NCBI RefSeq assembly: GCF_002157685.2
Contig: NZ_AP026738.1
Span: 682,001-746,000 of the forward strand
DNA: 64,000 bases
Source of the DNA: Comamonas thiooxydans
GTDB lineage: Bacteria > Pseudomonadota > Gammaproteobacteria > Burkholderiales > Burkholderiaceae_C
Direction: 5' to 3'
Made by a program: the position numbers and the translations under genes. Every line of letters begins with the position of its first letter. The stretch's first letter is position 1. Shown here piece by piece: positions 10,402 through 32,542 of this stretch. Below the pieces are notes generated by a model. The model worked only from the letters and a program-made list of their open reading frames with translations, ran no database searches and was not told the DNA's origin.

Positions 10402-10800
10402 ATGAGCGAATGGATTTCTATCTGCATGATTGAGGACATCCCTGTGCTGGGAGCGCGCCGCGTGGCGCGTGCACAAGGGCTGGATGTGGCTGTGTTCCGC
10501 AATGCCGACGACGAGGTGTTCGCGCTGCTGGACCGCTGCCCGCACAAGGGCGGCCCGCTGTCGCAGGGCATTGTGTTCGGGCGCAGTGTGGCCTGCCCGC
10601 TGCACAACTGGACGATTGCACTGAGCAGCGGCGAGGCGGCAGCCCCCGACGAAGGCTGTACCCCGTACTTCAGCGTACGCGTGGAGAGCGGCGAGGTGCA
10701 GCTGCGCGCCGACGAACTGGCCAGCCGTGCGCTGGAGCAGCAGCGGCCGCATGCCGGTCCCGCACATTGCGCGGGCAAATCCGGCTGCGCCACGGCCTAG
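10402..10800 (+). CDS. nirD: nitrite reductase (NADH) small subunit
   Basis: A 132-residue Rieske-type protein. The [2Fe-2S] ligand motifs CPHKGGP and CPLHNW are present, matching NirD, which partners NirB. ATG 10402 is preferred over ATG 10396 because AGGAG at 10391-10395 would touch the earlier codon but has 6-base spacing to the later one. The C-terminal ~25 residues (LEQQRPHAGPAHCAGKSGCATA) extend past the usual fold and carry two additional Cys of unknown role. Confidence 0.93.
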   Translation: MSEWISICMIEDIPVLGARRVARAQGLDVAVFRNADDEVFALLDRCPHKGGPLSQGIVFGRSVACPLHNWTIALSSGEAAAPDEGCTPYFSVRVESGEVQLRADELASRALEQQRPHAGPAHCAGKSGCATA

Positions 10801-10807
10801 TGTCTCT

Positions 10808-10866
10808 GTTGATATGAAATGAATAGCTGCATGCGCTTGTTCAGAAAGCGTTACAGCATGATTTCA
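10808..10866. repeat. AGCT/GCGCTT hairpin repeat between nirD and nasA
   Basis: An imperfect hairpin, ATAGCTG..TGCGCTT, short loop, AAAGCGT..ACAGC, belongs to the same family as the elements at 35905-35945, 41806-41862 and 46858-46920. It is AT-rich against its surroundings. No promoter was recognised here, so nasA is probably in the nirB transcript. Confidence 0.55.
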
Positions 10867-10947
10867 CCGAAAGTCTGCCATGTGTGAGACCCAATCCAGC
10901 GGCCCTTGTTGCCGTGAATGTCGATTCCGCATCTTCTGGGGGACACC

Positions 10948-13809
10948 ATGAAAGAAACCAAGTCCACCTGCCCCTATTGCGGTGTCGGCTGCGGCGTGAT
11001 CATCGAATCCGATGGCCTGCAGATTACCGGCGTGCGCGGCGATCCCGAGCATCCTGCCAACTCGGGCCGTCTGTGTACCAAGGGCAGCACCCTGCATCTG
11101 ACGGCCGCGCTGGCCTATGCCCAGCAGGCCCGCTTGCTGCAACCCATGCGCAGGCTGGAGCGGACATCCACGCCGCAGGCAGCGAGCTGGGATCAGGCCC
11201 TGGATGAACTGGCGGCGCGTATCGCCGGCATTCGCGCCGAACATGGTCCCGATGCACTGGGTTTCTATCTCAGCGGCCAGCTGCTGACCGAGGACTATTA
11301 CGTCTTCAACAAGCTGGTCAAAGGCCTGCTGGGCACCAACAATCTCGACACCAATTCGCGCCTGTGCATGAGCAGTGCCGTGGCCGGCTACAAGGCCACG
11401 CTGGGCGCCGATGCACCGCCGGCCTGCTACGAGGACATAGACCTGGCCGGCTGCATGTTCATCACGGGTAGCAACATGGCCTGGGCGCATCCCATTCTGT
11501 TCCGGCGTGTGGAAGAGGCCAGGGCGCGCAATCCGCAACTCAGGATCATCGTGGCCGACCCGCGCCGTACCGAGACCGCAGAGCTGGCCGATCTCTATCT
11601 GCCGCTGCAGCCGGGCAGCGATGTGATGCTGTTTCACGGTCTGCTGCACACCATGTTGTGGGAGGGCTGGACGGACAGCGCCTTCATCGCCCAGCATACC
11701 AGCGGCTTTGCAGCGCTCAAGGAGCTGGTGCGCGAAGCCACGCCCGAGAAGGTCGCTGCCATCTGCGGCCTGCCCGTGGCGGACCTGTACCGGGCGGCGC
11801 GCTGGATGGCGCTGGGCGGTGCCCAGGAGCCGACGGACGTGCGTCGTCCCACGCTCAGCCTGTACTGCCAGGGTCTGAACCAGAGCCACAGCGGAACGGC
11901 CAACAATGCGGCGCTGATCAATCTGCATCTGGCCACCGGCCAGATCGGCAGGCCAGGCGCAGGCCCGCTGTCGCTGACGGGCCAGCCCAATGCCATGGGC
12001 GGGCGCGAGGTGGGCGGACTGTCCAATCTGCTGAGCGCGCATCGCGATCTATCCAACGCAGGGCACAGGGCCGAAGTGGCGCGGCTATGGGGTGTGGAGT
12101 CGATTCCGCAGCAGCCCGGCAAGTCTGCGCTGGAGATGTTCGAGGCTGCCGCCGACGGGCAGATCAAGGCCTTGTGGATTGCCTGCACCAATCCCGCGCA
12201 GAGCATGCCCGAACAGGCCATGGTGCGCAGGGCGCTGGAGCGTGCCGAGCTGGTGGTGGTGCAGGAGGCCTTTGCCGCGACCGAGACCACGGCCTATGCC
12301 GACTGGTTGCTGCCTGCCTCCACCTGGGGCGAGAAGCTGGGCACGGTCACGAACAGCGAGCGGCGCATCTCGCGGGTGCGCGCCGCCGTGGTCGCGCCGG
12401 GGGCGGCACGCCATGACTGGCAGATAGGCGTGCAGCTGGCGCGGCGTCTGGAACAGCATCTGCGGCCCTCGCTGCCAAGCCTGTTTCCCTATGACACGGC
12501 GAATGCCGATGCGGGAGCCGAAGCCGTCTGGAACGAGCATCGCGAGTCCACACGCGGGCGCGACCTGGATATCACGGGTCTGAGCTGGGCGGTGCTGGAG
12601 GTCAAGGGACCCCAGCAATGGCCCATGCCTCAAGGCGCCGGCCAGGGCCGGCAGCGTCTGTATGGCGATGCGTTGTTTGCGACCGAGGACGGGCGTGCGC
12701 GCTTTGATGCCCAGCCCTGGCAGGCGGTGGCCGTGCCGCGCGATGCACGGCATCCGTTCAGTCTCAACACCGGCCGCCTGCGCGATCAATGGCATGGAAT
12801 GACGCGCACCGGCCAGCTGGGGCGCCTGTTCGCCCATGTCAGCGAACCGCAGCTGCAGGTCAGTCCCCAGGACATGCAGCGCCTGCAGCTGCAGGACGGC
12901 GACCTGGTCCACCTGTCCAACCGCTACGGCGCCATCGTGCTGCCTGTGCAGGCGGAAGGGGGGCTGCAGCCCGCACAGCTCTATCTGCCCATGCACTGGG
13001 GCAGCATGTATCTGAGCGGTCTGGGCTCCAAGGGACAGCGGCTTGCGGGAGTCAACGCCCTGACCACGCCCGAGCGCTGCCCGCGTTCCAAGCAGCCCGA
13101 GCTCAAGCATGTGGCCGTCAGGCTGCTCAAGGCCGAGCTGCCCTGGACCTGTCTGGGCATGGCCTGGCTTGATGACCAGCAGGTGCAGTCGGTTCGGCAG
13201 GCCTTGAGCGAATTGATGGCCGAGTTCGACTTTGCCAGCTGCGTGCTGTTCGGACGCGCCGTGCCGCTGGAAAAAGCGGATCAGGGCCGCACCGGCGTGC
13301 AGTTCCGCGCGGCGGCCTATGCGCAGCCCGACGCCGAGGTGCTGGCGCGGCTGCATGGCCTGCTGCAACTCGATGGCCCGCAGGCCATGCGCTATGCCGA
13401 CGCGCGTCGCCAATGCAGCCGTGCCATGGCGATTGGCCGTCAGACCGGGGAGCCCAGGCTCGATGCCTTTTTGCTCTGCGGTGACGCCAGCGCCGGTCGC
13501 TGGCTGGGGCCGGTCCTGCGCGACGAGCAATCGGTGCAAAGCTATGGGCGTCTGCTGCTGTCCTCGGGTGCCAGGCCGCCCGCCGCCATGCCGGCCCGGT
13601 CGCCACAGATCTGTGCCTGCATGAATGTGGATGAGGCCAGCATCAGCTCGGCGCTGACCGTGTGCGATGGCTCCGCCGACGAACGGCTCGCGCAGCTCAA
13701 ATCTTCTCTGGGATGCGGCACGCGCTGCGGCTCCTGTATTCCCAGGATCAAGCAACTGGTGCATGCGACGCCTGCGCCGCAGTCGGCAGCTCTGCCGGTC
13801 GCTGCCTAG
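10948..13809 (+). CDS. nasA: assimilatory nitrate reductase, molybdenum catalytic subunit with C-terminal BFD domain
   Basis: A 953-residue cytoplasmic molybdopterin oxidoreductase. The N-terminal [4Fe-4S] ligands are CPYCGVGC at about residues 8-15 plus Cys near 45 (NSGRLCTKG). The molybdopterin domain includes CMSSAVAGYKATLGADAPP and FITGSNMAWAHP. The molydopterin-dinucleotide-binding domain follows at about 600-740 (LNTGRLRDQWHGMTRTGQ), and the last 65 residues form a BFD-like [2Fe-2S] domain (CACMN and CGTRCGSC). This is the NasA/NasC layout of bacterial assimilatory nitrate reductases. GGGGGA precedes the ATG. It needs bis-MGD, which links it to the putative Mo uptake operon downstream. 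Confidence 0.95.
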   Translation: MKETKSTCPYCGVGCGVIIESDGLQITGVRGDPEHPANSGRLCTKGSTLHLTAALAYAQQARLLQPMRRLERTSTPQAASWDQALDELAARIAGIRAEHGPDALGFYLSGQLLTEDYYVFNKLVKGLLGTNNLDTNSRLCMSSAVAGYKATLGADAPPACYEDIDLAGCMFITGSNMAWAHPILFRRVEEARARNPQLRIIVADPRRTETAELADLYLPLQPGSDVMLFHGLLHTMLWEGWTDSAFIAQHTSGFAALKELVREATPEKVAAICGLPVADLYRAARWMALGGAQEPTDVRRPTLSLYCQGLNQSHSGTANNAALINLHLATGQIGRPGAGPLSLTGQPNAMGGREVGGLSNLLSAHRDLSNAGHRAEVARLWGVESIPQQPGKSALEMFEAAADGQIKALWIACTNPAQSMPEQAMVRRALERAELVVVQEAFAATETTAYADWLLPASTWGEKLGTVTNSERRISRVRAAVVAPGAARHDWQIGVQLARRLEQHLRPSLPSLFPYDTANADAGAEAVWNEHRESTRGRDLDITGLSWAVLEVKGPQQWPMPQGAGQGRQRLYGDALFATEDGRARFDAQPWQAVAVPRDARHPFSLNTGRLRDQWHGMTRTGQLGRLFAHVSEPQLQVSPQDMQRLQLQDGDLVHLSNRYGAIVLPVQAEGGLQPAQLYLPMHWGSMYLSGLGSKGQRLAGVNALTTPERCPRSKQPELKHVAVRLLKAELPWTCLGMAWLDDQQVQSVRQALSELMAEFDFASCVLFGRAVPLEKADQGRTGVQFRAAAYAQPDAEVLARLHGLLQLDGPQAMRYADARRQCSRAMAIGRQTGEPRLDAFLLCGDASAGRWLGPVLRDEQSVQSYGRLLLSSGARPPAAMPARSPQICACMNVDEASISSALTVCDGSADERLAQLKSSLGCGTRCGSCIPRIKQLVHATPAPQSAALPVAA

Positions 13810-16277: not shown

Positions 16278-16303
16278 CAAGGCCACCCCAGGGTGGCCTT
16301 TTT
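16278..16303 (+). terminator. terminator after the aldehyde dehydrogenase gene
   Basis: The stem AAGGCCACCC with GGGTGGCCTT is followed by TTTTT at about 16299-16303, 20 bases past the stop codon. It isolates the dehydrogenase from the following operon. Confidence 0.85.
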
Positions 16304-16346
16304 CATGGGATGTGTATGCCGTGTGGCTTATGGAGACTGTTTGTCG

Positions 16347-16373
16347 ATCGTTATTCCATAAATGAATAGCGGT
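16347..16373. promoter_or_regulatory. ModE-like palindrome in the promoter of the TonB/ABC operon
   Basis: CGTTATTC (16349-16356) and GAATAGCG (16364-16371) are near-perfect inverted repeats. With flanks they approximate the E. coli ModE pattern ATCGNTATATA..TATATANCGAT, best in the outer half-site bases. A TAGAAT (16377-16382) follows and could be the -10 element, so a bound repressor would cover the -35/spacer region. This supports molybdate-responsive repression, but ModE itself is not in the window and the match is by eye. Confidence 0.45.
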
Positions 16374-16423
16374 GGCTAGAATCGACGGTTTTTTACATTC
16401 GACAACAAATTACAGCCCGCGCC

Positions 16424-18466
16424 ATGCCATTGCACTCCACGGTTTCCCAGATCCATCCTCCGAGTTTTGTTCTTCGCCGCAGCTGGTTGTGGGGCGCGCT
16501 GGCCATCGTGCCCATGGGCACGGCCTGGGCCCAGGGCGCAGCCGAGGCTGCGAGTCAGACCTTCACGCTGGGCACGGTGGAAGTCAGCGCGCGGCGCGAG
16601 GCCGAGGAGCTCGGGGCCGGCGACATGCAGCGCGTCGGCAGTGCCGAGATGGAGCGCATCAATGCCAGCACCGTGGCCGATGCCGTGCGCAATCTCCCCG
16701 GCGTGAGCCTGTCACGCAACAATCGCAACGAGGAAATGATCAGCCTGCGCGGCTTCGACTCGCGCCAAGTGCCCATCTTTGTGGATGGCGTGCCGCTGTA
16801 CGTGCCCTATGACGGCTATGTGGATCTGGGCCGCTTCACCACCTTCGACCTGGCCGAGATCAATGTGGCCAAGGCCGGTGCCTCGCTGCTGTACGGCCCC
16901 AATACGCTGGGCGGTGCCGTCAATCTGGTCACGCGTAAACCGGTCAAGCCCTTCGAGGGCGATGTGCGCCTGGGTGTGGGCAGCGGCGGCGAGCGCAGGG
17001 CGAGCTTCAACCTGGGCGGTAACCAGGGCAGCTGGTACTACCAGCTGGGTGCCTCCTACCTGGATGCCGATAGCTTTCCTCTGCCCCGGGGCTTCAGGGA
17101 TTACAAAAAGCAGCCCACCGATACCGGCAACAACCGCGAGAACGCGGACCGCACCGACAAGCGCCTGTCCTTCAAGCTGGGACTCACGCCCAATGCCACG
17201 GATGAATACGCCATCGGCTATGTGCGCCAGGAAGGCGAGAAGGGCAATCCCGTCTACACCGGTCAGTCCACGCAGAAGAACGCCGTGCGTTACTGGCGCT
17301 GGCCCTATTGGGACAAGGACAGCCTGTATTTCCTGAGCACGACCCGTTTGAACAGCAGCAATGTGCTCAAGACGCGCCTGTACCACGACACCTACAAAAA
17401 CGGTCTCGACATGTACAAGGACGCCAGCTACACGGCCCATGATCCGACCAGCAGCTACAAGGATGTGAGCAAGGGTGCCAGCGTGGAGTGGATCAACTAC
17501 GCCTTCTCCGGTCACGAGCTGCATGCGGCCTTCCATTACAAGCAGGACGAGCACACCGACGCGGCCTCGGGCAAGGACCCGCAGAAGCACTACCGCGATG
17601 TGACCACCTCGCTGGTGCTCGAGGATCACATTGCCCTGGCCGAGCGCTGGCGCCTGACGCTGGGCCTGAGCCATGACCAGCGCGACGCCAAGCAGGTCTA
17701 CCAGTGGCCCACGGGCTCGACCAGCGCCACCAACGGCCTGGCGCGCCTGAGCTATGCGCTCACGGCCCAGGGCGACGAGGTCTATCTGATTGCCTCGCAC
17801 AAGACCCGCTTTCCGACCATCAAGGACCGCTATTCGGCACGCATGGGAACGGCTCTGGCCAACCCCGACCTCAAGCCCGAGGTGGCCAACCATCTGGAGC
17901 TTGGCCTGAGCGGCAAGCCCTGGCAGGGCGGCAAGGGCCAGGCGGCGCTGTTCTACAGCCGGGTGCGCGACCAGATCCAGACCATGGTCGTGGACTCCAC
18001 GGCCTGCGGCGGCAAGACCTGCAACCAGGCGCAGAACGTGGGACGCACGCGCAATGCCGGTTTTGAGGTGTCGCTGGCGCAGCAACTGTCGGCCCAATGG
18101 GCTCTGCATGCGGGCTACACCTATCTGAGCCGCACGAATCTCAGCGACCGCAGCATCACCTTGACGGACACGCCGCGCCAGCGCCTGACTGCAGCCCTGC
18201 AATGGAATCCGCAGGCCCAGTGGCAGCTGCGCGCCGAGCTGGAGGCCGAGCAGGGCCGCAAGGTGCCGCTGTCGGCCAGTGGCCAGGCACAGGTCTATCA
18301 GATGGCCGGCTATGGCGTGGCCAATCTGCGCGCGCGCTATCTGCCACGTCCGGACACCACGCTGGATTTCGGCGTGGCCAATCTGGGCGACAAGTGGTAT
18401 CAGCTGGCCGACGGTCTGCCCATGCCTGGTCGCAGCTGGTACGTGAACCTGGGTTACCGATTCTGA
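16424..18466 (+). CDS. TonB-dependent outer-membrane receptor (putative molybdate/tungstate uptake)
   Basis: A 680-residue receptor. The signal peptide ends near residue 36 (GTAWAQ), followed by a TonB-box-like TLGTVEVSA, a plug domain (NLPGVSLSRNNRNEEMISLRGFDSR, then YGPNTLGGAVNLVTRKP) and a C-terminal beta-barrel ending in YVNLGYRF with terminal Phe. It opens a six-gene string with overlaps or gaps under 20 bases. That pairs it with an ABC importer, so the ligand crosses the outer membrane actively. The ligand is inferred to be a molybdate or tungstate species from the TupA-like neighbour, the ModE-like site and adjacency to nasA; a siderophore or cobalamin ligand cannot be excluded. Confidence 0.85.
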   Translation: MPLHSTVSQIHPPSFVLRRSWLWGALAIVPMGTAWAQGAAEAASQTFTLGTVEVSARREAEELGAGDMQRVGSAEMERINASTVADAVRNLPGVSLSRNNRNEEMISLRGFDSRQVPIFVDGVPLYVPYDGYVDLGRFTTFDLAEINVAKAGASLLYGPNTLGGAVNLVTRKPVKPFEGDVRLGVGSGGERRASFNLGGNQGSWYYQLGASYLDADSFPLPRGFRDYKKQPTDTGNNRENADRTDKRLSFKLGLTPNATDEYAIGYVRQEGEKGNPVYTGQSTQKNAVRYWRWPYWDKDSLYFLSTTRLNSSNVLKTRLYHDTYKNGLDMYKDASYTAHDPTSSYKDVSKGASVEWINYAFSGHELHAAFHYKQDEHTDAASGKDPQKHYRDVTTSLVLEDHIALAERWRLTLGLSHDQRDAKQVYQWPTGSTSATNGLARLSYALTAQGDEVYLIASHKTRFPTIKDRYSARMGTALANPDLKPEVANHLELGLSGKPWQGGKGQAALFYSRVRDQIQTMVVDSTACGGKTCNQAQNVGRTRNAGFEVSLAQQLSAQWALHAGYTYLSRTNLSDRSITLTDTPRQRLTAALQWNPQAQWQLRAELEAEQGRKVPLSASGQAQVYQMAGYGVANLRARYLPRPDTTLDFGVANLGDKWYQLADGLPMPGRSWYVNLGYRF

Positions 18467-19362
18467 TGGCCATGGAAAACCTGCTCCAGACACCGTTGGC
18501 GCGCCGTGAATGGTTGCAAGGCCTGGCCGCTCTGGGCCTGGCTGGAGGTCCGGCCCTGGCGGCCGAGTCAAAGCTGGCTTTGGGCACAGGCGTACAGGTG
18601 GCGGCCGTGGGCGGACTGGTGCTGTGCGGCGTGTGGCCGCGCGTGGCAGAGCAGGCCAGCCAGGCTCTGGCCATGCCGGTCACCACCGTGGCGGCAGCAC
18701 CCAAGGAGGGCGTGGTGCCCGCCTTCGCGCGCGGCGAGGCGCAGATGCTGCTGATCCACGCCAGCGACGAAGCCATGGCACTGGAGGCCAGCGGCATGGC
18801 ATCCGCCGCGCGTGTCTGGGGCTGGAACGAGCATGTGATTGCCGGACCTGCTCATGACCCCGCCGGCGTGCGTTCGGCCGCTGACGGCACGCAGGCGCTG
18901 CGGCGCATTGCCGAGACCGGCTCGCCCTTTATCGCGCTGCGCGATCCTGGCAGCTATACCGTGGTGCAGCGCCTGTGGCGGCGCGGCGGCATACGCCCCG
19001 ATGCGCGCTGGCTGCGCGCCGACACCGGCCCGCGCCCGCAGGCCGTGCTGGAGCTGGCGGCGCGGGAGCAGGCCTATGCCGTGGTCGGCCATATTCCCTT
19101 GGCCTTCGGCAAGATGGGCGCCCCCGGCATAGAGCTGCTGCTGCATGGCGATCCGCTGATGCGCAGACCCTATGTGCTGCTCACGCCGGGTCCGCTCCAT
19201 CCGGCCACGGTAGCGCAGCGCAGGGCGGTCAGTCAGCTGGCCGACTATCTGCTCTCGGCCGCCGGGCAACAGATACTCAGGAATGCCAACGGCAGCGACG
19301 GCACCTGGGTGTTTGCGCGCGACAGCGTGCCTGCGGGCATGAGTGCTGGCGCTGCTGGCTAG
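18466..19362 (+). CDS. TupA-like periplasmic binding protein lacking the canonical oxyanion motifs
   Basis: A 298-residue exported protein whose start overlaps the receptor stop (TGATG). The N-terminus has a Tat-like RREWLQGLAALGLAGG and ends near AALAAES. The body resembles tungstate-binding TupA: LLIHASDEAMALEASG, WNEHVIAGPAHDPAGV and ALRRIAETGSPFIALRD follow the TupA order. The usual TTTS segment and the SRGDxSGTH segment that hold the oxyanion are replaced (VAAVGGLVL and ALRDPGSYT). It could bind a modified ligand or act as an accessory. A second binding protein (19927-20979) in the same operon serves the ABC permease. Confidence 0.65.
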   Translation: MAMENLLQTPLARREWLQGLAALGLAGGPALAAESKLALGTGVQVAAVGGLVLCGVWPRVAEQASQALAMPVTTVAAAPKEGVVPAFARGEAQMLLIHASDEAMALEASGMASAARVWGWNEHVIAGPAHDPAGVRSAADGTQALRRIAETGSPFIALRDPGSYTVVQRLWRRGGIRPDARWLRADTGPRPQAVLELAAREQAYAVVGHIPLAFGKMGAPGIELLLHGDPLMRRPYVLLTPGPLHPATVAQRRAVSQLADYLLSAAGQQILRNANGSDGTWVFARDSVPAGMSAGAAG

Positions 19363-19381
19363 AGATCGTCAAAGGACCTGT

Positions 19382-19933
19382 ATGAGCTCCAACTCCAAAG
19401 TGCCGCCCCTGGCGGCGCTGATCTACCCGGATGACCAGCACGATATCGAGGCCTTGCTGGAGAGCGTGGCACGGCGGTTGCAGCAATCTGGCCGTAATGT
19501 GGGCGGGCTGGTGCATCACCAAAGCCACTATGCCAATGGCAACAAGTGCATGCGTCTGCTGGATCTGCGCAGCGGCCAGCAGTTCGAGATGACCGAGGAC
19601 CTGGGGGTCAGCTCAAAGGCCTGCAGCCTGAACCCGCAGGCCCTGGCCCAGGCCAGTGTGGTGCTGCGCCAGGCCTTGGCCGATGGTGTGGAGCTGGCCG
19701 TGGTCAACTGCTTCGGCCAGCTGGAAGCGGCGGGTGGCGGCTTTGTCCAGGAAATCGCAGGCCTGATTGGGGCAGACATTCCCGTCATTACTGCGGTCGC
19801 GGCGCGGCATGAGGCCGGCTGGCAGGCGTTTACGGGCGGAGACTTTGTCAGCCTGCCGGTGGATGAGGAAGCCGTGCTGCGCTGGTGCCTGCAGCAGTTG
19901 CAAACGCAGGGCACGGAAGACCTGCCATGCTGA
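19382..19933 (+). CDS. DUF2478 family protein
   Basis: A 183-residue soluble protein without a signal peptide. It opens VPPLAALIYPDDQHDIEALL, and has a mid-region NCFGQLEAAGGGFVQEI and a C-terminal GGDFVSLPVDEEAVLRWC; this pattern is what I recognise as DUF2478. From memory the family often sits near molybdenum transport genes; its biochemical role is unknown. AAAGGA precedes the ATG. It is the third gene of the operon, between two binding-protein genes, and overlaps the next by 7 bases. Confidence 0.7.
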   Translation: MSSNSKVPPLAALIYPDDQHDIEALLESVARRLQQSGRNVGGLVHHQSHYANGNKCMRLLDLRSGQQFEMTEDLGVSSKACSLNPQALAQASVVLRQALADGVELAVVNCFGQLEAAGGGFVQEIAGLIGADIPVITAVAARHEAGWQAFTGGDFVSLPVDEEAVLRWCLQQLQTQGTEDLPC

Positions 19934-20979
19934 CACGTCGCCAATGGCTGCATGGAGGCGCAGCGGTGCTGGCTTCAAGCCTGTACCAGGGTGCGTTATG
20001 GGCGCAGGACGGTCGCTTCGTCATTGCTGCTCGATTCGGCTCGCTGCCCGCAAGGCCGGGCCGGGTATTTGCCTCGGGGCCGCCGGCAGGCGTGCTGCTG
20101 GCGGCGCTGGCACCGCAGCAGCTGCTGGGCTGGCCCATGCAACTCAGCGATGCGGCGCGCGCCCATCTGGGAGCCCCACTGCAGTCCTTGCCCTATCTGG
20201 GGCGCCTGTCGGGGCGCGGCAGCACGCTGCCGCTCGAAAAGCTGCTGGCGCTGCAACCCGATCTGGTGCTGGACTCCGGCACCTCCGATGCCACCCATGT
20301 CTCTGCCGCCGAGCGTCTGGCGCGCCAGACGGGCCTGGCATGCGTGCTGGTGCAGGGCAGCCTGCCCGAGCACGCGCGCCAGCTGGGCGAGGTCGGAGCC
20401 CTGCTGGGCGCAGCCGAGCGTGGCGAGACCCTGGCCCGACATGCCGACGAAGTCGCCAGGCTGGTGCGCGCCGTGACCGCAGGGCTGGGGGAGCAGGCCA
20501 GGCCGCGCGTCTACCTGGGGCGCGGCGCCAACGGCCTGGAAACCGGGCTGGCCGGCTCCATCAATGTCGAGGTGATCGACTACGCTGGCGGCCGCAATGT
20601 GGCAGCCCAGGCCGGTACGGGTGGACTCACGCGTGTCTCCATGGAGCAGATCCTGGCCTGGGACCCCGAAGTCATACTGACCCAGGAGGCCGGTTTTGCC
20701 GAGCGCGTGCGCCAGGACCCCTTGTGGCGCGGCGTCAGCGCAGTGCGCAGCGGCCGTGTGCACTGCGCGCCCGTGCTGCCCTTCGGCTGGCTGGACGGCC
20801 CGCCCAGCGTGAACCGACTGATCGGCGTGCGCTGGCTGCTCGAAAAGCTGCATCCGGGCCGGCTCGCCCGGCAGGACGCAAAGCCCCTGGAGCAGGCGGT
20901 GCGTGAGTTCTATGCGCTGTTCTACGGCGCCCAGCTGTCGCCGGTGCAGTTGCGGGCGCTGCTGGACGCCGCGCGTTGA
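19927..20979 (+). CDS. periplasmic binding protein of the FecB/BtuF/MolA class
   Basis: A 350-residue class III binding protein. The N-terminus TRRQWLHGGAAVLASSLYQ is a Tat-like signal ending near ALWAQ. The mature protein has the two-lobe pattern of this class: RPGRVFASGPPAGVLLAALAP, then LEKLLALQPDLVLDSG, and in the second lobe MEQILAWDPEVILTQE with a conserved PLWRGVSAVRSGRVH ending. It pairs with the FecCD-type permease and ATPase downstream. This is the MolA/MolB/MolC layout, known in Haemophilus for molybdate and tungstate, but the same fold also serves iron chelates and cobalamin. Confidence 0.82.
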   Translation: MLTRRQWLHGGAAVLASSLYQGALWAQDGRFVIAARFGSLPARPGRVFASGPPAGVLLAALAPQQLLGWPMQLSDAARAHLGAPLQSLPYLGRLSGRGSTLPLEKLLALQPDLVLDSGTSDATHVSAAERLARQTGLACVLVQGSLPEHARQLGEVGALLGAAERGETLARHADEVARLVRAVTAGLGEQARPRVYLGRGANGLETGLAGSINVEVIDYAGGRNVAAQAGTGGLTRVSMEQILAWDPEVILTQEAGFAERVRQDPLWRGVSAVRSGRVHCAPVLPFGWLDGPPSVNRLIGVRWLLEKLHPGRLARQDAKPLEQAVREFYALFYGAQLSPVQLRALLDAAR

Positions 20980-20993
20980 AGGCGTGTGCCTGC

Positions 20994-22097
20994 ATGAAGT
21001 CCTTTGATTCCGGACCAGACGGTGAGCGTAGCCAAGGTGCTGCTCTGAGGGCGGACGCCAGCCAGTGCCGCCGGCGCGGCCCGGTGCGTGGGAACCTGGG
21101 TTGGTGGACAGCCCTGGTCTTGCTGGTTCTGGTGCTGCTGTGGGCGCTGGGTTCGGGCCAGTTTGCGCTCGCGCCGGCACAGCTGGCCGAAGCATTGTGG
21201 GCGCGTGCTACGGGGGCGGCGTCGCCGCTGCCGCCAGCGGCCGAAACCGTGCTCTGGAACATCAGGCTGCCACGCATCGCAGCCGGCATGGCGGTCGGTG
21301 CGATGCTGGCAGCGGCAGGCGCGGCCTACCAGGGCATGTTTCGCAATCCGCTGGTCTCGCCCGACATCCTGGGTGTTTCGGCCGGTGCCGGCCTGGGCGC
21401 CGTCGTCGCCATCTATCTGGGCCTGTCGATGTTCGCCGTGCAATGGCTGGCCTTTGGTGGCGGACTGGTCGCCGTGGCCGTCGTAGTGGCTATCAGCGCC
21501 TGCGTGCGCAGGCACGATCCGGTGCTGGTGCTGGTACTGGCCGGTATTGCACTGGGCGCCTTGCTGGGCGCCGGCATTGCCCTGATCAAGACCCTGGCCG
21601 ACCCGAACACCCAGCTGCCGTCCATCACCTTCTGGCTCATGGGCGGGCTCTCGGCCGTGACGCTGCAGGAAGTGGCCGCCACGGCGCCTGTGATGCTGGC
21701 GGCCCTGTTGCCCTTGCTGCTGCTGCGCTGGCGCATCAATCTGCTGGCTCTGCCCGATGAGGAAGCGCGGGCTCTGGGCGTGCCGGTCGGGCGGCTGCGC
21801 CTGGTGCTGGTGGTTTGCGCCACCCTGGGCACGGCGGCAGCCGTATCGCTGGCCGGCATCATCGGCTGGGTCGGGCTGGTGGTGCCGCATGTGGCGCGCC
21901 TGCTGGTCGGCCCTGATTTTGTGCGGCTGCTGCCGGCTTCAGCTCTGCTGGGTGCGGGCTTTGTGGTGGCGGCCGATACGCTGGCCCGCACCATGGCGCG
22001 CATCGAGCTGCCGCTGGGCATTCTGACGGCCCTGGTCGGTGCACCATTCTTTCTGTATCTGCTGGCCCGCACGGGACGCCGCGAAGGAGAGGGCTGA
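20994..22097 (+). CDS. FecCD/BtuC-family ABC permease
   Basis: A 367-residue inner-membrane permease with about ten membrane segments. Family motifs include LRLPRIAAGMAVGAMLAAAGAAYQGMFRNPL-type sequence (about residues 88-118), SPDILGVSAGAGLGA, GWVGLVVPHVARLLVG and a final GAPFFLYLL. ATG 20994 follows the binding-protein stop by 14 bases; an overlapping TTG at 20976 is less likely. The first ~35 residues are hydrophilic and variable. It would form a dimer fed by the preceding binding protein. Confidence 0.88.
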   Translation: MKSFDSGPDGERSQGAALRADASQCRRRGPVRGNLGWWTALVLLVLVLLWALGSGQFALAPAQLAEALWARATGAASPLPPAAETVLWNIRLPRIAAGMAVGAMLAAAGAAYQGMFRNPLVSPDILGVSAGAGLGAVVAIYLGLSMFAVQWLAFGGGLVAVAVVVAISACVRRHDPVLVLVLAGIALGALLGAGIALIKTLADPNTQLPSITFWLMGGLSAVTLQEVAATAPVMLAALLPLLLLRWRINLLALPDEEARALGVPVGRLRLVLVVCATLGTAAAVSLAGIIGWVGLVVPHVARLLVGPDFVRLLPASALLGAGFVVAADTLARTMARIELPLGILTALVGAPFFLYLLARTGRREGEG

Positions 22098-22852
22098 TGG
22101 CGGTGCTGGAGTTGCAAGGACTGCGCACCGGCCACGGTCGCCGCGTGGTCAGCGAAGCGGTGGACCTGTCCATTGCCGCCGGCGAGGTGCTGTGTCTGCT
22201 CGGCCCCAACGGCTGTGGCAAGACCACGTTGTTTCGCACGGTGCTGGGCCTGTTGCCGCCGCTGGCGGGTCGGGTGCTGGTGCAGGGGCAGCCGGTACAG
22301 CACTGGCCGCGTGCGGAGTTCGCGCGCCGCGTCGGCTATGTGCCCCAGGCCCAGGCCGGGGTGTTTGCCTTCGAGGCGCTGGATATGGTGCTCATGGGCC
22401 GCGCCGCGCGCCTGCCGCTGCTGGCCAGGCCCTCCGGCGTGGACCGGGTCATGGCACTGGCCTGCATGGAGCGGCTGCAGATCGTCCATCTGGCCGAACG
22501 CCGCTACACGGAGCTCAGCGGCGGCGAGCGGCAGCTGGTGCTGATTGCGCGCGCGCTGGCGCAGGAGCCGGCGCTGCTGGTCATGGACGAGCCCACGGCC
22601 AGCCTGGACTTCGGCAACCAGATCCGCGTGCTGGAGCAGATCGAGGCGCTGAGCGCCCAGGGCATGGCCATGCTGTTGTCCACCCACCAGCCCGAGCACG
22701 GCTTGCGCGTGGCCAGCCGGATTGCTCTGCTGGGCCATGGGCGGCTGCTGGGCGTGGGCGAGCCGCGCGCCGTGGCCACGCCCGCAGCGCTGGCTGAGCT
22801 CTATGGCGTTAGCGAGGCGGCGATTGCCGCCCATCTATCGGGCGGCCGCTGA
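22097..22852 (+). CDS. ABC transporter ATP-binding protein (FecE/BtuD/MolC type)
   Basis: A 251-residue ATPase with Walker A GPNGCGKTT, signature LSGGERQLVLIARAL, Walker B LLVMDEPTASLD and the STHQPEH H-loop. It overlaps the permease stop (TGATG). It is the last gene of the six-gene operon and is convergent with the FUSC gene, whose stop lies only 5 bases further on, so there is no room for a separate terminator. Confidence 0.9.
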   Translation: MAVLELQGLRTGHGRRVVSEAVDLSIAAGEVLCLLGPNGCGKTTLFRTVLGLLPPLAGRVLVQGQPVQHWPRAEFARRVGYVPQAQAGVFAFEALDMVLMGRAARLPLLARPSGVDRVMALACMERLQIVHLAERRYTELSGGERQLVLIARALAQEPALLVMDEPTASLDFGNQIRVLEQIEALSAQGMAMLLSTHQPEHGLRVASRIALLGHGRLLGVGEPRAVATPAALAELYGVSEAAIAAHLSGGR

Positions 22853-22857
22853 AGCGG

Positions 22858-24852
22858 TCAGCGCAACGCGGCGCTGGAGGCAAAGAAGGCCGGATGCTCG
22901 CGGATGTCCTGGGCAGCCAGTCGCAGTTGCAGCGCCTGCTCGGGCTGGCGCTGCTGTATGCGCCGGGCCAGGCCTTGCAGCAGCGGCACGGCCCTGGCGG
23001 GAGCACTGGGCAGTTGCTGCAGTCTCTGCAGCGCGCTGCGCACACCACGCAAGGTGCTTTCGGACAGGAGTGCATCCGCCTGCATCTGGTGCAGGATCAG
23101 CACGGCCTTGCCCACCCTCAACGCGGCCAGACCGCAGTCGGCCGCGTCCTGCACGGCGGGGGCGCTGACTTTTTCGGAGGCGCGCACCAGGCGCAGCAGG
23201 CGGTGGTAGAGGCGGGCGCGCCACACGCGCACGTCGCGGGCGTGCACCGGAGCGGAAGCCATGTCCTGCAGCTCGTGAACCATCATGGCGCGCAGGCCGT
23301 TGAGCCTGCCTTGCGCGGTGACGGGCAGGATGAAGCGATAGGCCACCCAGCCGGCCAGCGGGCCGGTGACGATGGCAAACGCCATGGACAGCGAGTGGCC
23401 CACATCGAGCTGGTAGGGAAAGTGCGGCGACAGCGCCAGCAGGATCACCATATTGCAGTCGAAGCCGTACAGCGTGGTGCGGCGGTGGCTGAGCAGCAAG
23501 GCGCCAACAAAGATGAAGGGCAGCATCATCAGCACCATCTGCAGCTGGCTGCTGGCGAACGGCCAGGCAAACCACTGGCAGGCCAGTGCCACGCCGGCGC
23601 CCATGGCCTGGCCCAGAATCACAAAGCGCATGGTGAAGACCGGGTTCTCGAACGAGGAAAACACGGTGATCATCACCGACAGGCCCAGCAGCATGTAGGC
23701 GCCACCATGCCAGCCCGTGACCACCCAGACCAGTCCGACCAGAAAGATGGCGCTGAAGGCCCGCAGCATGGCCCGGCGCGCGCCCACCCAGTCGCTGTGC
23801 AGGACCACGGGCAGCTGGCGTGCGCGATGGTGGGCCGGCAGCGTCAGGTCGCTGGCGGCCACGAAATGGGCCTGCAGGGCCAGGCCGATATTGCCCAGGA
23901 TTTCCTCGGCATGGCCCCAGCCTGCGGCCGCGCTGCGGGCCGTGGCAATGGCATCGATGGCGGCCAGCGGTGCAGGCTGGGTTTCCAGCAGCTTGGCGGC
24001 CTGCTCCAGTGCGGCCGTCATGATCCGGGCCTGCTCGGCCGTGAAGGCGGGGGTCAGGGTCTTGCCCGTGCTGTCGCGCAGCCAGAGCAGGGCCGAGATC
24101 TGGGTGTTGATCAGGCGGCGCAGCGCCCGCACGGCGCGGCGCGAGCGCTGCGATCCGGCGGCATGCGGGTCCAGTCCTTCCTCGATGGCGGCCATCACGG
24201 CCAGTCGCTCGGCCAGGTCCCTGGGGCTGAGTGCGCTATGCCCGCTGGCCGTGGCCTGTGCCGCATCGGCGATGTCGCGCAGCAGGCGGGCGCAGAGTCG
24301 TCGCACCCTGCCGTCGCCGGGTATTTCGGCGCCCACGGGCGTGAACAGCCAGCCCACGACAAGGGCGGTGGCCACGCCGGTCAGCGCGGTAAACAGGCGA
24401 TCCCAGCCTAGCGCGTAGACATGGGCGGGGTTGCCGTTGTCCAGCAAGGCCACCATGGAGGCCGAATAGCCGGCCAGCATCGTGCCGTAGGAGGCAAAGC
24501 TGCGCTGCAGATTGCCCAGACCCGCGCAGATGCCAATCCACACCGCCAGTCCTGTGACCAGCCAGAGCAGATCGCCATTTGCCACCAGTACCAGCACCAC
24601 GCCGGCGGCCGTGCCGAGCAGCGTGCCCGTGGTACGGAAAAAGCTTTTCTCCAGCAACTGGCCGCGCAGCGGCTGGGAAGCGGCCCAGACCGTCATGCCT
24701 GCCCATTGCGGGTGTTCCAGCCCCAGGGCCCAGGCGGCGAACACGGCAATACAGGCTGCAAAAGCCGTGCGCAGATGCTGGCGCAGGCGGGCGCTGTCAA
24801 AGCCCCATCGCGTGGCGCTCTCCAGCAGACGGTCGTAGGCAGCCACGCTCAT
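22858..24852 (-). CDS. FUSC family inner-membrane protein (aromatic-acid/toxin efflux type)
   Basis: A 664-residue protein with two blocks of membrane segments separated by a cytoplasmic helical domain, as in YccS/YhfK/AaeB-like FUSC proteins. The first block opens LRTAFAACIAVFAAWALGLEHPQWAGMTVW; the second has SAIFLVGLVWVVTGWHGGAYMLLGLSVMI. Its ATG overlaps the stop of the MarR gene by four bases, so regulator and transporter form an operon. Efflux of small acids or drugs is family inference. No membrane-fusion partner (AaeA type) is next to it. Confidence 0.8.
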   Translation of the reverse strand: MSVAAYDRLLESATRWGFDSARLRQHLRTAFAACIAVFAAWALGLEHPQWAGMTVWAASQPLRGQLLEKSFFRTTGTLLGTAAGVVLVLVANGDLLWLVTGLAVWIGICAGLGNLQRSFASYGTMLAGYSASMVALLDNGNPAHVYALGWDRLFTALTGVATALVVGWLFTPVGAEIPGDGRVRRLCARLLRDIADAAQATASGHSALSPRDLAERLAVMAAIEEGLDPHAAGSQRSRRAVRALRRLINTQISALLWLRDSTGKTLTPAFTAEQARIMTAALEQAAKLLETQPAPLAAIDAIATARSAAAGWGHAEEILGNIGLALQAHFVAASDLTLPAHHRARQLPVVLHSDWVGARRAMLRAFSAIFLVGLVWVVTGWHGGAYMLLGLSVMITVFSSFENPVFTMRFVILGQAMGAGVALACQWFAWPFASSQLQMVLMMLPFIFVGALLLSHRRTTLYGFDCNMVILLALSPHFPYQLDVGHSLSMAFAIVTGPLAGWVAYRFILPVTAQGRLNGLRAMMVHELQDMASAPVHARDVRVWRARLYHRLLRLVRASEKVSAPAVQDAADCGLAALRVGKAVLILHQMQADALLSESTLRGVRSALQRLQQLPSAPARAVPLLQGLARRIQQRQPEQALQLRLAAQDIREHPAFFASSAALR

Positions 24853-25340
24853 GCGCGCTCCTCGGTGCCGGGGTGGGCTTGGGCCGAGTGCTGCTCGTGC
24901 ATCTGCTCGATGCGGGCGCGAATCTTGTTGACGCCGTCCAGCATGGCCTCGACCTCGGAGTCCTGCAGGTCTTGCAACAGACTGAGTTCGGCCTCCAGCA
25001 TGGTGGCGCGGATGCTGTCCACGGCGCCATTGCCTTCGGCCGTGAGAAAGATGCGCTTGCTGCGGCGGTCGGCCGCATCGGCGCGGCGCTCCACCCAGCC
25101 CTTGCCTTCGAGAATGTCCAGCAGGCGCACCAGGCTGGAGCCGTCCAGGCCCACGCGCTCGGCCAGTTCCTTTTGCGTCACGCCGTCGCCCCAGGCGCGC
25201 AGGTGCAGCAGCGGCGTCCAGGTGGCGTCGGTCAGGCCGCTGGCGGCCAGCTGTTCTTCGACAAAACGCCGCCATTGGCGGGTCAGGGTGACCATGAGAA
25301 AGCCCAGGCGGTCGCGGGAAGGTGCATCGGCAAAAGACAT
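24849..25340 (-). CDS. MarR family transcriptional regulator
   Basis: A 163-residue winged-helix regulator. The DNA-binding part TQKELAERVGLDGSSLVRLLDILEGKGWVERR and the wing DRRSKRIFLTAEG are typical of MarR. ATG 25340 is preferred over an in-frame codon 36 bases upstream because the latter lies in the AT-rich putative operator at 25360-25376. It probably represses itself and the FUSC gene that follows with a 4-base overlap; the inducer is unknown. Confidence 0.9.
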   Translation of the reverse strand: MSFADAPSRDRLGFLMVTLTRQWRRFVEEQLAASGLTDATWTPLLHLRAWGDGVTQKELAERVGLDGSSLVRLLDILEGKGWVERRADAADRRSKRIFLTAEGNGAVDSIRATMLEAELSLLQDLQDSEVEAMLDGVNKIRARIEQMHEQHSAQAHPGTEERA

Positions 25341-25359
25341 GGGTGGAATTTTGATGCTT

Positions 25360-25376
25360 TTGCAATTAATTTGCAA
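25360..25376. promoter_or_regulatory. probable MarR operator
   Basis: Two TTGCAA palindromes (25360-25365 and 25371-25376) separated by TTAAT give a 17-base near-symmetrical site about 20 bases upstream of the marR-family start, in an AT-rich patch. Size and position fit an autoregulatory MarR operator. Confidence 0.5.
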
Positions 25377-30235: not shown

Positions 30236-32542
30236 CTAAAGATCCCAGCGCAGTGAGGCACTAAAGGTTCTCTGCGGATAGGGATGGAAGTTCCAGTACT
30301 TGGCATTGTTGGCGTTGTCTATGCCGAAGGCCGCCGACAGTTGCTTGTCGATCTGATAGCGTGCCCGCAGATCGACGCTGAAATACTGGCTGGCGCCCAT
30401 ATAGGTGTCGGCATGCACATCGCTGTTGTCCAGATTCGAGTACTGGCGTCCGCTGTAGCGCGCGGCCACCGTCAGGGCCCAGCGTTCATCGGGCTTGTAG
30501 GTGGCCCAGGCCGTGGCACGCCAGCGTGGCACACGCGGCTGCCATTTGCCGACGCTGGCCGGGTTGGCGGCATTGGCCGTGATGCGCGAGTTCGCCCAGG
30601 TCAGGCTGCCGCCCAGGTCCAGCCCGCGAATCCACACCGACTGCGTCGAGTAGGCCAGCTCCAGCCCCGAGGTACGGACCTGATCCACGTTCTGCACCGC
30701 AGAGACGGTGGTGCCGGCAATCAGCTGGCTGTAGAGCGCATCGCGCGTGCGTTCATGGAACCAGGTGGCGCGCAGCAAACCATTGCCCAGATCCTGCTCG
30801 GCCGTCAGCTCGCCCGTCCAGGACTTTTCTGGTTTCAGATTCGGGTCGTTGATGAAGGACAGCGCACCGCCCGAAGTCGCGCCATACAGCTCGCCCACGG
30901 TGGGAAAGCGCACGGCCCGGCCCAGCGATGCCTTGAGCGTGGTGTCGCGGGCCAGCTGTTAGGCCAGCGCGGCCTTGGGCGAGAAATGCGATTCGCTGCG
31001 CTGGACGTAATTCAGCTGGCTGCTGGCCGTGGCGGTGTGGCCCTGGCTGGCTGTCCAGTCCTCCCAGCGCAGGCCCAGCACTGCCTTCCAGTCCCTGGTC
31101 AGCTGCCAGCTGTCCTGTGCCCAGGCATAGCGGGTCTCGGCCCTGCCGCCGACCTGGCTGACGACAGCCTGCTCGTTGGGCGGGCCGGACTGCCAGTCGC
31201 CCAGCACGTTGTATTTGCTGATGTTCAGCCGGTAGGCATCGCGGCCCAGGCCGAAGTCCACGATATGTGCGCCTTTCATTCCCTGCGGCCGCCATGTGCC
31301 CTTGGCGGCCAGCGTGTTCCAGCCCGTGCCGTCCTGATCCTGCAGCGTGCCCTTGCCGCCCAGATTGGCAGCCGGCTGGGCCACGGTGGGCACGCGCTGC
31401 TGATCCTTGCCGTAGTCGTACAGGCTGGCGCTGAGCTCCCAGTCAAACTCGCCCTGGGCATGACTTTTGAGCGAGACCCCGTGCATGGTGTGGGTCTGCT
31501 GGTCCTGGCTCAGTCCGAAGGCGGTATCGGCCAGCTTGTAGGTCTTGCCGTCGATATTGATGTTGCCGCTGTAGATGGGCTGGCCGTCAGGCCCGCGCAG
31601 ATAGGTCTGTGAGCTGCCCTTGGCGCTGTTCTGCCACCAGCCCAGCGTGTAGCTGGCGCGCAGCGTGGGCGTGATGTCATAGGCCAGCTTGATCTTGGCG
31701 TGATCCTGCCGGGTGCGGTACTGCGTGCCGGCGCCCAGGATGTACCAGGGCTGGTTGGTGATATTGAGCCCGGCAATGGCGCCGGTCACGGGCGTGCCGG
31801 CACCGCCCGCCACGCCGGCGGACTGCAGCGCGGTGGGGAAGGTCATGGGCTGGCCCTGGCTGTCGCTGCGACTCAGGTTGATCCAGTACGACCAGTCCCC
31901 GCTTCTGCTGCCTATGGAAGCGCTGGTATTCCAGCTACGGTAATGGCCGCTGCTGCCCAGCACGTCGGCGCTCTGTTGGGCATAGCCGGCCGCCACATGG
32001 GCTTCGAGCTTGTCGGGCATGCGCGTCACATAGTCCACCACGGCACCGGCGGAGTTGCCGGGGTAGGCGGCCGAGAACGGGCCGTACATGACGTCGACGC
32101 GTTCGATCTCCTCGGGCGTCACCAGGCCCCAGCGCGGCGCATAGTTGCTGCCGTTGGCAATGCCATTGCCCAGATAGTTGGACAGCAGAATGCCGTCAGC
32201 ATAGACGGCCGAGCGCGCGCTATTGCCCGTGCCCGAAGCCCGCGTGGAGAGGATGGCGTGGTTGTAGTCGCCGATATAGCGCTTGCGCACCAGCAGGCTG
32301 GGCAGATATTTGAGCGCGTCCTCGCTGTCTGTGGCATTGATGCGGGTCTCGATCTCCTCGCGCGTGATGCCTTCGATGGTGGTCGGAATCTGCGTGGGCA
32401 GCGAGCTGGGCTGACCGCCGTTGACGGTGACCACGCCCAGGGTCTTGGAGCGCTCGGGCAGGTCAGCGGAATCGGTCGAGGTCTGGGCCAGGCACGGCCA
32501 TGCAATACCACTGACCACCAGTGGCAGAAAAATCTGTTTCAT
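30236..32542 (-). pseudogene. TonB-dependent receptor interrupted by an in-frame TAA
   Basis: The frame runs 769 codons in one phase but contains a TAA at 30961-30959, 527 residues in. Upstream: signal peptide (IAWPCLAQ), plug domain with LKYLPSLLVRKRYIGDYNHA, SARSAVYADGILLSNYLG and PEEIERVDVMYGPFSAAYPG. Downstream, in the same frame, the barrel continues QLARDTTLKASLGRAVRFPT and ends YPQRTFSASLRWDL. The stop falls where an aromatic residue would be expected, so a single base change from Tyr (TAC/TAT) explains it. A 527-residue product would lack the last third of the barrel. Either a recent pseudogene or a base-call error. Substrate unknown. Confidence 0.8.

Follow-up and report, generated by a model that had tools for sequence, protein, structure and literature searches.

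Gene content and structure of the operon

We analysed a 64,000-nucleotide stretch of Comamonas thiooxydans DNA (contig NZ_AP026738.1, positions 682,001 to 746,000; hereafter the window), which is part of a single 5,914,097-base contig, the 5.91-Mb chromosome. The window contains a run of six genes encoding a TonB-dependent receptor, a TupA-like periplasmic protein, a DUF2478 protein and the parts of a MolABC-type ATP-binding cassette (ABC) importer, preceded by a ModE-like operator palindrome (Table 1). All six genes lie on the plus strand without internal stops, the successive junctions being a 1-base overlap, a 19-base gap, a 7-base overlap, a 4-base overlap and a 1-base overlap, although the binding protein/permease junction becomes a 14-base gap if the permease begins at its ATG. 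The coordinates and stop-free frames bear out the first-pass annotation, made from the sequence alone, which had described a six-gene run with overlaps or gaps below 20 bases, and Pfam matches agree with its identification of the TonB receptor, the DUF2478 protein and the MolABC/FecCD-type importer parts. The next gene downstream (22858-25365, minus strand) belongs to the FUSC family and is convergent with the operon.

Table 1 Features of the operon and of the neighbouring oxidoreductase gene (window positions)
Feature	Position	Strand	Length	Remarks
Molybdopterin oxidoreductase, probably assimilatory nitrate reductase	10918-13809	+		PF00384 223 bits; two genes upstream of the operon
ModE-like operator palindrome CGTTATTCCATAAATGAATAGCG	16349-16371	.	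23 bp	52 bp before receptor ATG
TonB-dependent receptor gene	16424-18466	+	680 aa	PF07715 78.6 bits (cut-off 23.9); PF00593 124.9 bits (cut-off 27)
TupA-like periplasmic protein gene	18466-19362	+	298 aa	Pfam SBP_bac_11
DUF2478 gene	19382-19933	+	183 aa	PF10649 164.9 bits
MolA-like Peripla_BP_2 binding protein gene	19927-20979	+	350 aa	PF01497 79 bits
MolB-like FecCD/BtuC-type permease gene	TTG 20976 or ATG 20994 to 22097	+		PF01032 291.3 bits
MolC-like ABC ATPase gene	22097-22852	+	251 aa	PF00005 109.5 bits

The receptor has both the plug and the barrel domain, each well above its cut-off, and none of the NCBIfam models among the best 25 of its 31 matches reaches its own. Among eight solved structures the best relative of the permease was HI1471 (2nq2; E 1.7e-65), followed by a haem permease (2.3e-53), with BtuC at 1.2e-39, while the relatives of the binding protein in the PDB were 4pag (E 4.7e-35), 4ovk (E 3.8e-14) and, third, HI_1472 (E 1.7e-12). 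The ATPase carries the motifs GPNGCGKTT (Walker A), LSGG (signature) and MDEP (Walker B). By eye, twin-arginine-like signals open both periplasmic binding proteins, ARREWLQ (18466-18520) in the TupA-like and TRRQWLH (19927-19990) in the MolA-like protein, and both look as if they were exported by the twin-arginine translocation route. An ARAGORN tRNA-Sec call at 19937-20032, within the start of the MolA-like gene, is probably spurious.

A TonB receptor together with a BtuC-type importer is the classic layout for vitamin B12 uptake, and in NCBIfam the permease scored best against BtuC (250.6 bits, cut-off 461) and the ATPase against a corrinoid ATPase (189.8 bits, cut-off 537), both far under their cut-offs. 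We consider cobalamin or corrinoid uptake of the BtuB-BtuF-BtuC-BtuD type to be very improbable however, since the receptor scored 112.9 bits against the BtuB model TIGR01779 (cut-off 599.7), among solved structures MolB is a closer relative of the permease than BtuC is, a ModE-like box is present and no Rfam match was found in the window at gathering scores. A cobalamin riboswitch is common, though not required, at B12 uptake loci. Four such riboswitches occur elsewhere in this genome, and for three of them another Peripla_BP_2 gene lies no more than about 4.2 kb away; with none in the window this alternative, raised in the first-pass annotation, loses ground and was set aside.

A ModE-like operator upstream of the receptor

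The start given to the operon by the first-pass annotation, 16347, falls just ahead of the palindrome, which was left unnamed there. Between modE and modA on the same chromosome lies the box CGCTATTCCATCAATGAATAGCG, which is identical to the operon box CGTTATTCCATAAATGAATAGCG at 21 of 23 positions. A pattern derived from these two boxes and allowed up to three mismatches was found at only these two places in the chromosome, against none for the reversed pattern used as a control, and within the window the shuffle expectation for the same pattern was 0.00. Compared with the Escherichia coli ModE consensus ATCGNTATATA-N6-TATATANCGAT, as quoted in PMC545781, the arms CGNTAT and ATANCG of the operon box agree, whereas its inner part differs and its CG-to-CG spacing is 23 rather than 24. 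The gene divergent from modA (modA itself scoring 252.1 bits) encodes a regulator matching HTH_1 (43.9 bits) and TOBE (52.1 bits), and reaches 89.5 bits against TIGR00637, under the cut-off of 98.5. A scan for promoters and terminators around the operon box called neither; an inverted repeat followed by T residues is visible by eye at about 16280-16304. A further ModE-like palindrome, with one mismatch, lies at locus L009, which holds the second ModE-type match of the genome considered below.

We then counted the box in up to 450 bases surrounding the receptor start at 27 loci with related receptors, the window included. The exact box was present at 18 of the 27, and the number rose to 24 when one mismatch was allowed. 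Dinucleotide shuffles gave a mean of 0.000 exact boxes (maximum 0) and 0.33 boxes with at most one mismatch (maximum 3), and random regions of the same loci gave 1/1265 and 10/1265 respectively. In a tree whose outgroup consisted of own-genome receptors only (FastTree, 419 columns), the 27 receptors formed one clade (support 1.000) apart from 29 other receptors of the C. thiooxydans genome. The genome has 36 plug matches, of which 30 loci, the operon receptor and the 29 others, were compared; none of the 29 others carries the exact box and two carry it with one mismatch. The window itself holds a second plug-domain match, at 32039-32392 on the minus strand (contig 714039-714392), in a frame of only 529 aa.

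Recurring gene neighbourhoods

The nearest named loci of the binding protein are from Comamonas and are 91-95% identical. The receptor cluster, whole or in part, is carried by 8 of the 18 named loci matched by the binding protein, these being from Comamonas, Delftia, a Burkholderiaceae metagenome-assembled genome and another member of the Comamonadaceae. The TupA-like gene was not found in one of these loci (L026), and neither the TupA-like nor the MolB or MolC genes were found in L028. DUF2478 was found in 26 of the 299 genomes of the family, and 26 DUF2478 places outside the C. thiooxydans genome, two of them from one genome, were read over 8.7-18 kb; two of these (L066, L067) seem to duplicate the records L024 and L026. 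The receptor was present at 15 of the 26 places and at all 15 it was accompanied by MolA, MolB and MolC matches, with modA plus modB or modE matches at 10 of the 15, one weak modE match being left out. At the level of the class the receptor was recovered, at E values up to 1e-60, in 7 of 369 genomes including the present one and a second of its genus.

The other five genomes are represented by L104 and L182-L185, and four of these loci, L182 being the exception, contain variants of the same association in other families. In L104 modE is divergent from a receptor-DUF2478-MolABC cluster that has an exact box close to the start of the receptor, and L185 has an exact box followed by the receptor, MolA, MolB and MolC, with one frame without a family between them. 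L184 combines modB/modC, MolABC parts, the receptor and modE in one cluster, and also contains a second TonB-receptor barrel gene (10733-12988), which has an exact ModE-like box at 10729 and is followed by a MolA-like gene. In L183 TupA-, TupB- and TupC-like genes precede the receptor, the TupA having the TTTS motif and the TupB and TupC having been assigned via ModB and ModC profiles. A SBP_bac_6-type binding protein follows the clade receptor in both L183 and L182, and may mark a sub-branch with another cargo. In Erwinia, an exact ModE-like palindrome marks the start of a MolA-like gene in three of four loci (L035:8108, L036:7927, L037:7729); none of these three has a MolB or MolC match in the locus, and the neighbours in L035 include prephenate dehydratase and prephenate dehydrogenase genes.

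These neighbourhoods bear on two alternative substrates. The first is an iron-siderophore, haem or other metallophore (Fe, Co, Ni) taken up under ModE control, or a system shared by iron and molybdenum. Siderophore and haem receptor models do match the receptor below their cut-offs, L182 has a SBP_bac_6-type neighbour and no molybdenum-gene match, and a Fur-linked TonB cluster for iron and molybdenum has been predicted in Acidithiobacillus ferrooxidans (PMC2631029). This alternative appears improbable nonetheless, as the recurring partners of the receptor are modABC, modE, MolABC and, once, TupABC-like genes, and as none of the 29 other genome receptors compared has the exact box. The second, that vanadate or another molybdate-like oxyanion is the real substrate, draws on the overlapping specificities of metal-oxyanion systems. 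There is a parallel in Azotobacter vinelandii, where VnfA1-dependent TonB receptors are reported in operons with ABC components (PMC9542535), but control of the ModE type, together with partners of the ModABC, MolABC and TupABC-like kinds, speaks for molybdenum or tungsten, and we regard this substrate as slightly less probable still.

Upstream of the operon in the window lie nitrate-transporter genes, NirB, NirD, the molybdopterin oxidoreductase, uroporphyrinogen methyltransferase and aldehyde dehydrogenase genes. The best NCBIfam row for the oxidoreductase was formate dehydrogenase alpha (480.2 bits), with NasA at 431.8 and NasC at 430.2 bits, all under cut-off, and it is named a nitrate reductase because the nitrite-reductase (NirB, NirD) and nitrate-transporter genes adjoin it. 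The description of the operon as next to nitrate reductase is thus right but loose, given that the uroporphyrinogen methyltransferase and aldehyde dehydrogenase genes intervene. Among the relatives read, the recurring neighbours are molybdenum/tungsten transport genes and nitrate-reductase matches occur in few only, a weaker link than that annotation implied.

The TupA-like and DUF2478 proteins

The TupA-like protein matches TupA structures by phmmer (3lr1, E 6.4e-14; 5my5, E 1.2e-11) and its predicted fold is nearest to 3muq, 3lr1 and 5my5. TupA proteins are recognised by a TTTS motif and by the conserved residues Arg118, Thr124 and Asp170, as stated in PMC5517513. In the subfamily of the operon protein the place of TTTS is taken by VGG in 33 of 35 members and by SGG or IGG in the other two, and the Arg, Thr and Asp of TupA do not align. 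The stretch RDPGS, present in 34 of the 35, may replace the arginine loop of TupA, and on this short-loop reading (RDPGS for RGDxSGT) there is therefore still room for an oxyanion role. Canonical TupA identity was rejected on the motif; judged by fold and sequence the protein belongs to a divergent TupA subfamily. The first-pass name TupA-like accordingly holds for fold and sequence similarity, with the qualification that the protein is divergent and lacks TTTS.

The DUF2478 protein has a THEP1-type nucleoside triphosphatase (NTPase) fold, but that of the window has no GxxxxGK[ST] and thus no Walker A P-loop. The family was found in 36 of the 398 genomes of a phylum sample and in two methanogen control genomes. 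We read 44 further DUF2478 loci from other families or classes (L104-L109, L137-L174): several molybdenum/tungsten-transport matches were present in three (L104, L106, L108), a ModE-like match in one (L149), ATPase matches only, possibly generic, in five (L138, L143, L145, L154, L170) and none in 35, from which it follows that DUF2478 is not tied to the operon. In L106 and L108, which come from two congeneric genomes of another family, DUF2478 precedes TupB-, TupC- and TupA-like genes, the TupA having STTS. A Pfam scan of the DUF2478 neighbours, run as one artificial alignment of 79 of 80 proteins (L160:2054-5788 left out), found MoCF_biosynth in 4/79 and a MobA-like transferase in 3/79; carbonic anhydrase was equally frequent (4/79), so that the molybdenum-cofactor neighbours are a hint only.

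Proposed function

Taken together, the operon very probably constitutes a ModE-controlled, TonB-energised molybdenum/tungsten acquisition system. The near-identical modA box and the neighbourhoods of the receptor clade argue independently for the molybdenum/tungsten substrate that the first-pass annotation had put forward. The sequence itself shows the gene content, the operon structure, the likeness of the box to that of the modA promoter, the recurring neighbourhood and the single receptor clade, and from these we infer ModE binding, substrate, energy coupling, transport direction and the roles of the two accessory proteins. When molybdenum is plentiful, ModE-molybdate would bind the palindrome and repress the operon, by analogy with ModE biology, and when molybdenum is short this repression would be lost and the operon expressed. 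The receptor, powered by TonB-ExbBD, would then carry scarce molybdenum or tungsten species over the outer membrane and the MolA-like protein would deliver them to MolBC, where ATP would drive their passage into the cytoplasm. Enzymes that depend on the molybdenum cofactor, for example the nearby reductase, would use the imported molybdenum. The TupA-like protein may act as an optional helper in the periplasm, its binding site being altered, and DUF2478 is probably a cytoplasmic pseudo-NTPase handling or releasing the metal.

Several observations weigh against this proposal. The 27 loci are not independent, as they include five almost identical Comamonas loci and two, L073 and L075, of a single genome; without the five the counts become 13/22 for the exact box and 19/22 for at most one mismatch. 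The receptor start lacks a box in three clade members (L084, L183, L184), and L182 has one-mismatch boxes only, together with its SBP_bac_6-type neighbour and no molybdenum-gene match in the 18.5 kb read. The receptor is missing at 11 of the 26 DUF2478 sites read in the family, the motif comparison found no TTTS in the TupA-like protein and the importer has BtuC and corrinoid ATPase as its best NCBIfam rows. A second ModE-type DNA-binding match is present in the genome (G000:C1:5059344-5059616; 80.2 bits, 148-aa frame), for which reason the acting regulator can be named only provisionally. Finally, the generic box CGNTAT-N11-ATANCG occurs at 6 places in the genome against 4 for its control. 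This pattern is too loose, so only the specific box match has genome-wide weight, and the generic box was dropped as a genome-wide claim.

Within the proposed molybdenum/tungsten system, the cargo could be the metal bound to a chelator. Chelates are the classic cargo of TonB receptors and of FecCD/BtuCD-type importers. In this version, a possibility to which we give a little less than an even chance, the receptor and MolABC would carry molybdate or tungstate complexed with a small chelator or molybdophore, for example a catecholate, produced by this or other microbes, and DUF2478 or the TupA-like protein would release the metal. The TupA-like protein diverges from the oxyanion-binding TupA, and MolBC-A of Haemophilus is reported to be a low-affinity system for free molybdate (PMC4031551), a description compatible with a chelate being the true cargo. 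However no chelator-biosynthesis gene turned up among the window proteins scanned, no search aimed at such genes having been made in the operon-bearing genomes, and one relative (L183) pairs the receptor with a TupA of the TTTS type and hence of the oxyanion type.

Relation to known systems

The operon shares with MolABC (MolBC-A) of Haemophilus influenzae a Peripla_BP_2 protein, a FecCD-type permease (2nq2) and an ABC ATPase, but adds the TonB receptor, DUF2478, the TupA-like protein and the ModE-like box, and HI_1472 resembles its binding protein less than 4pag and 4ovk do. A molybdate-dependent repression of molB is mentioned for Haemophilus (PMC4031551). With the ModABC/ModE regulon it has in common an operator that nearly equals the modA promoter box of its own genome, yet what it encodes is not ModABC but a FecCD-type importer and a TonB route through the outer membrane. 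The resemblance to TupABC lies in the TupA fold (3lr1, 5my5) and in a near-invariant histidine within a LLxH stretch; the differences are the absence of TTTS, an altered aspartate region, the RDPGS loop and an operon without TupB or TupC. BtuB-BtuCDF and siderophore TonB systems likewise consist of a TonB receptor, a periplasmic binding protein and a BtuCD-type importer, from which the operon is set apart by the ModE-like box, the lack of a cobalamin riboswitch and a receptor whose clade excludes the 29 other genome receptors compared.

The usual view is that porins let molybdate diffuse in (PMC8264917). The iron and molybdenum cluster predicted in 2008 for Acidithiobacillus ferrooxidans comprises outer-membrane receptors, a TonB system, ABC parts and a ModA-like protein (PMC2631029). 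It differs in having a Fur box, given in a figure legend, two receptors with predicted siderophore affinity and a link to nitrogenase, and the section of that paper describing the cluster names no ModE control, DUF2478 or MolABC. Another dedicated outer-membrane molybdate route, T6SS-ModA-IcmP (T6SS, type VI secretion system), has been proposed in Pseudomonas aeruginosa, consisting of a secreted ModA and the outer-membrane IcmP, with no TonB receptor named in the account given in PMC8602904. We found no ModE-controlled TonB receptor for molybdate in the open-access literature; RegPrecise and Studholme and Pau 2003 were outside this scope and an earlier prediction may therefore exist. In Comamonas testosteroni under microgravity, mopIII, two modB-labelled genes and JMRS01_240067, annotated as an iron-complex permease, are reported as up-regulated together with genes for haem and other iron functions (PMC10781756). 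By its locus number JMRS01_240067 might correspond to the permease of the operon, and it was not counted as evidence.

If the proposed function is correct, group-6 metals would join the cargo of TonB-dependent transport through a dedicated, energised and ModE-controlled outer-membrane route, and receptors at present called just generic, siderophore or iron-complex receptors would be relabelled. Molybdophore uptake would then be open to direct test, since the genes and the operator have been named and growth on nitrate offers a readout. DUF2478 would gain a testable role near molybdenum genes. It is also conceivable, with somewhat under even odds, that the operon is part of a ModE-controlled, TonB-dependent molybdenum/tungsten chelate pathway spread over several families of the class. 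Such a pathway would explain as well the likeness of MolABC-type importers to chelate transporters and the low affinity for free molybdate of MolBC-A in Haemophilus.

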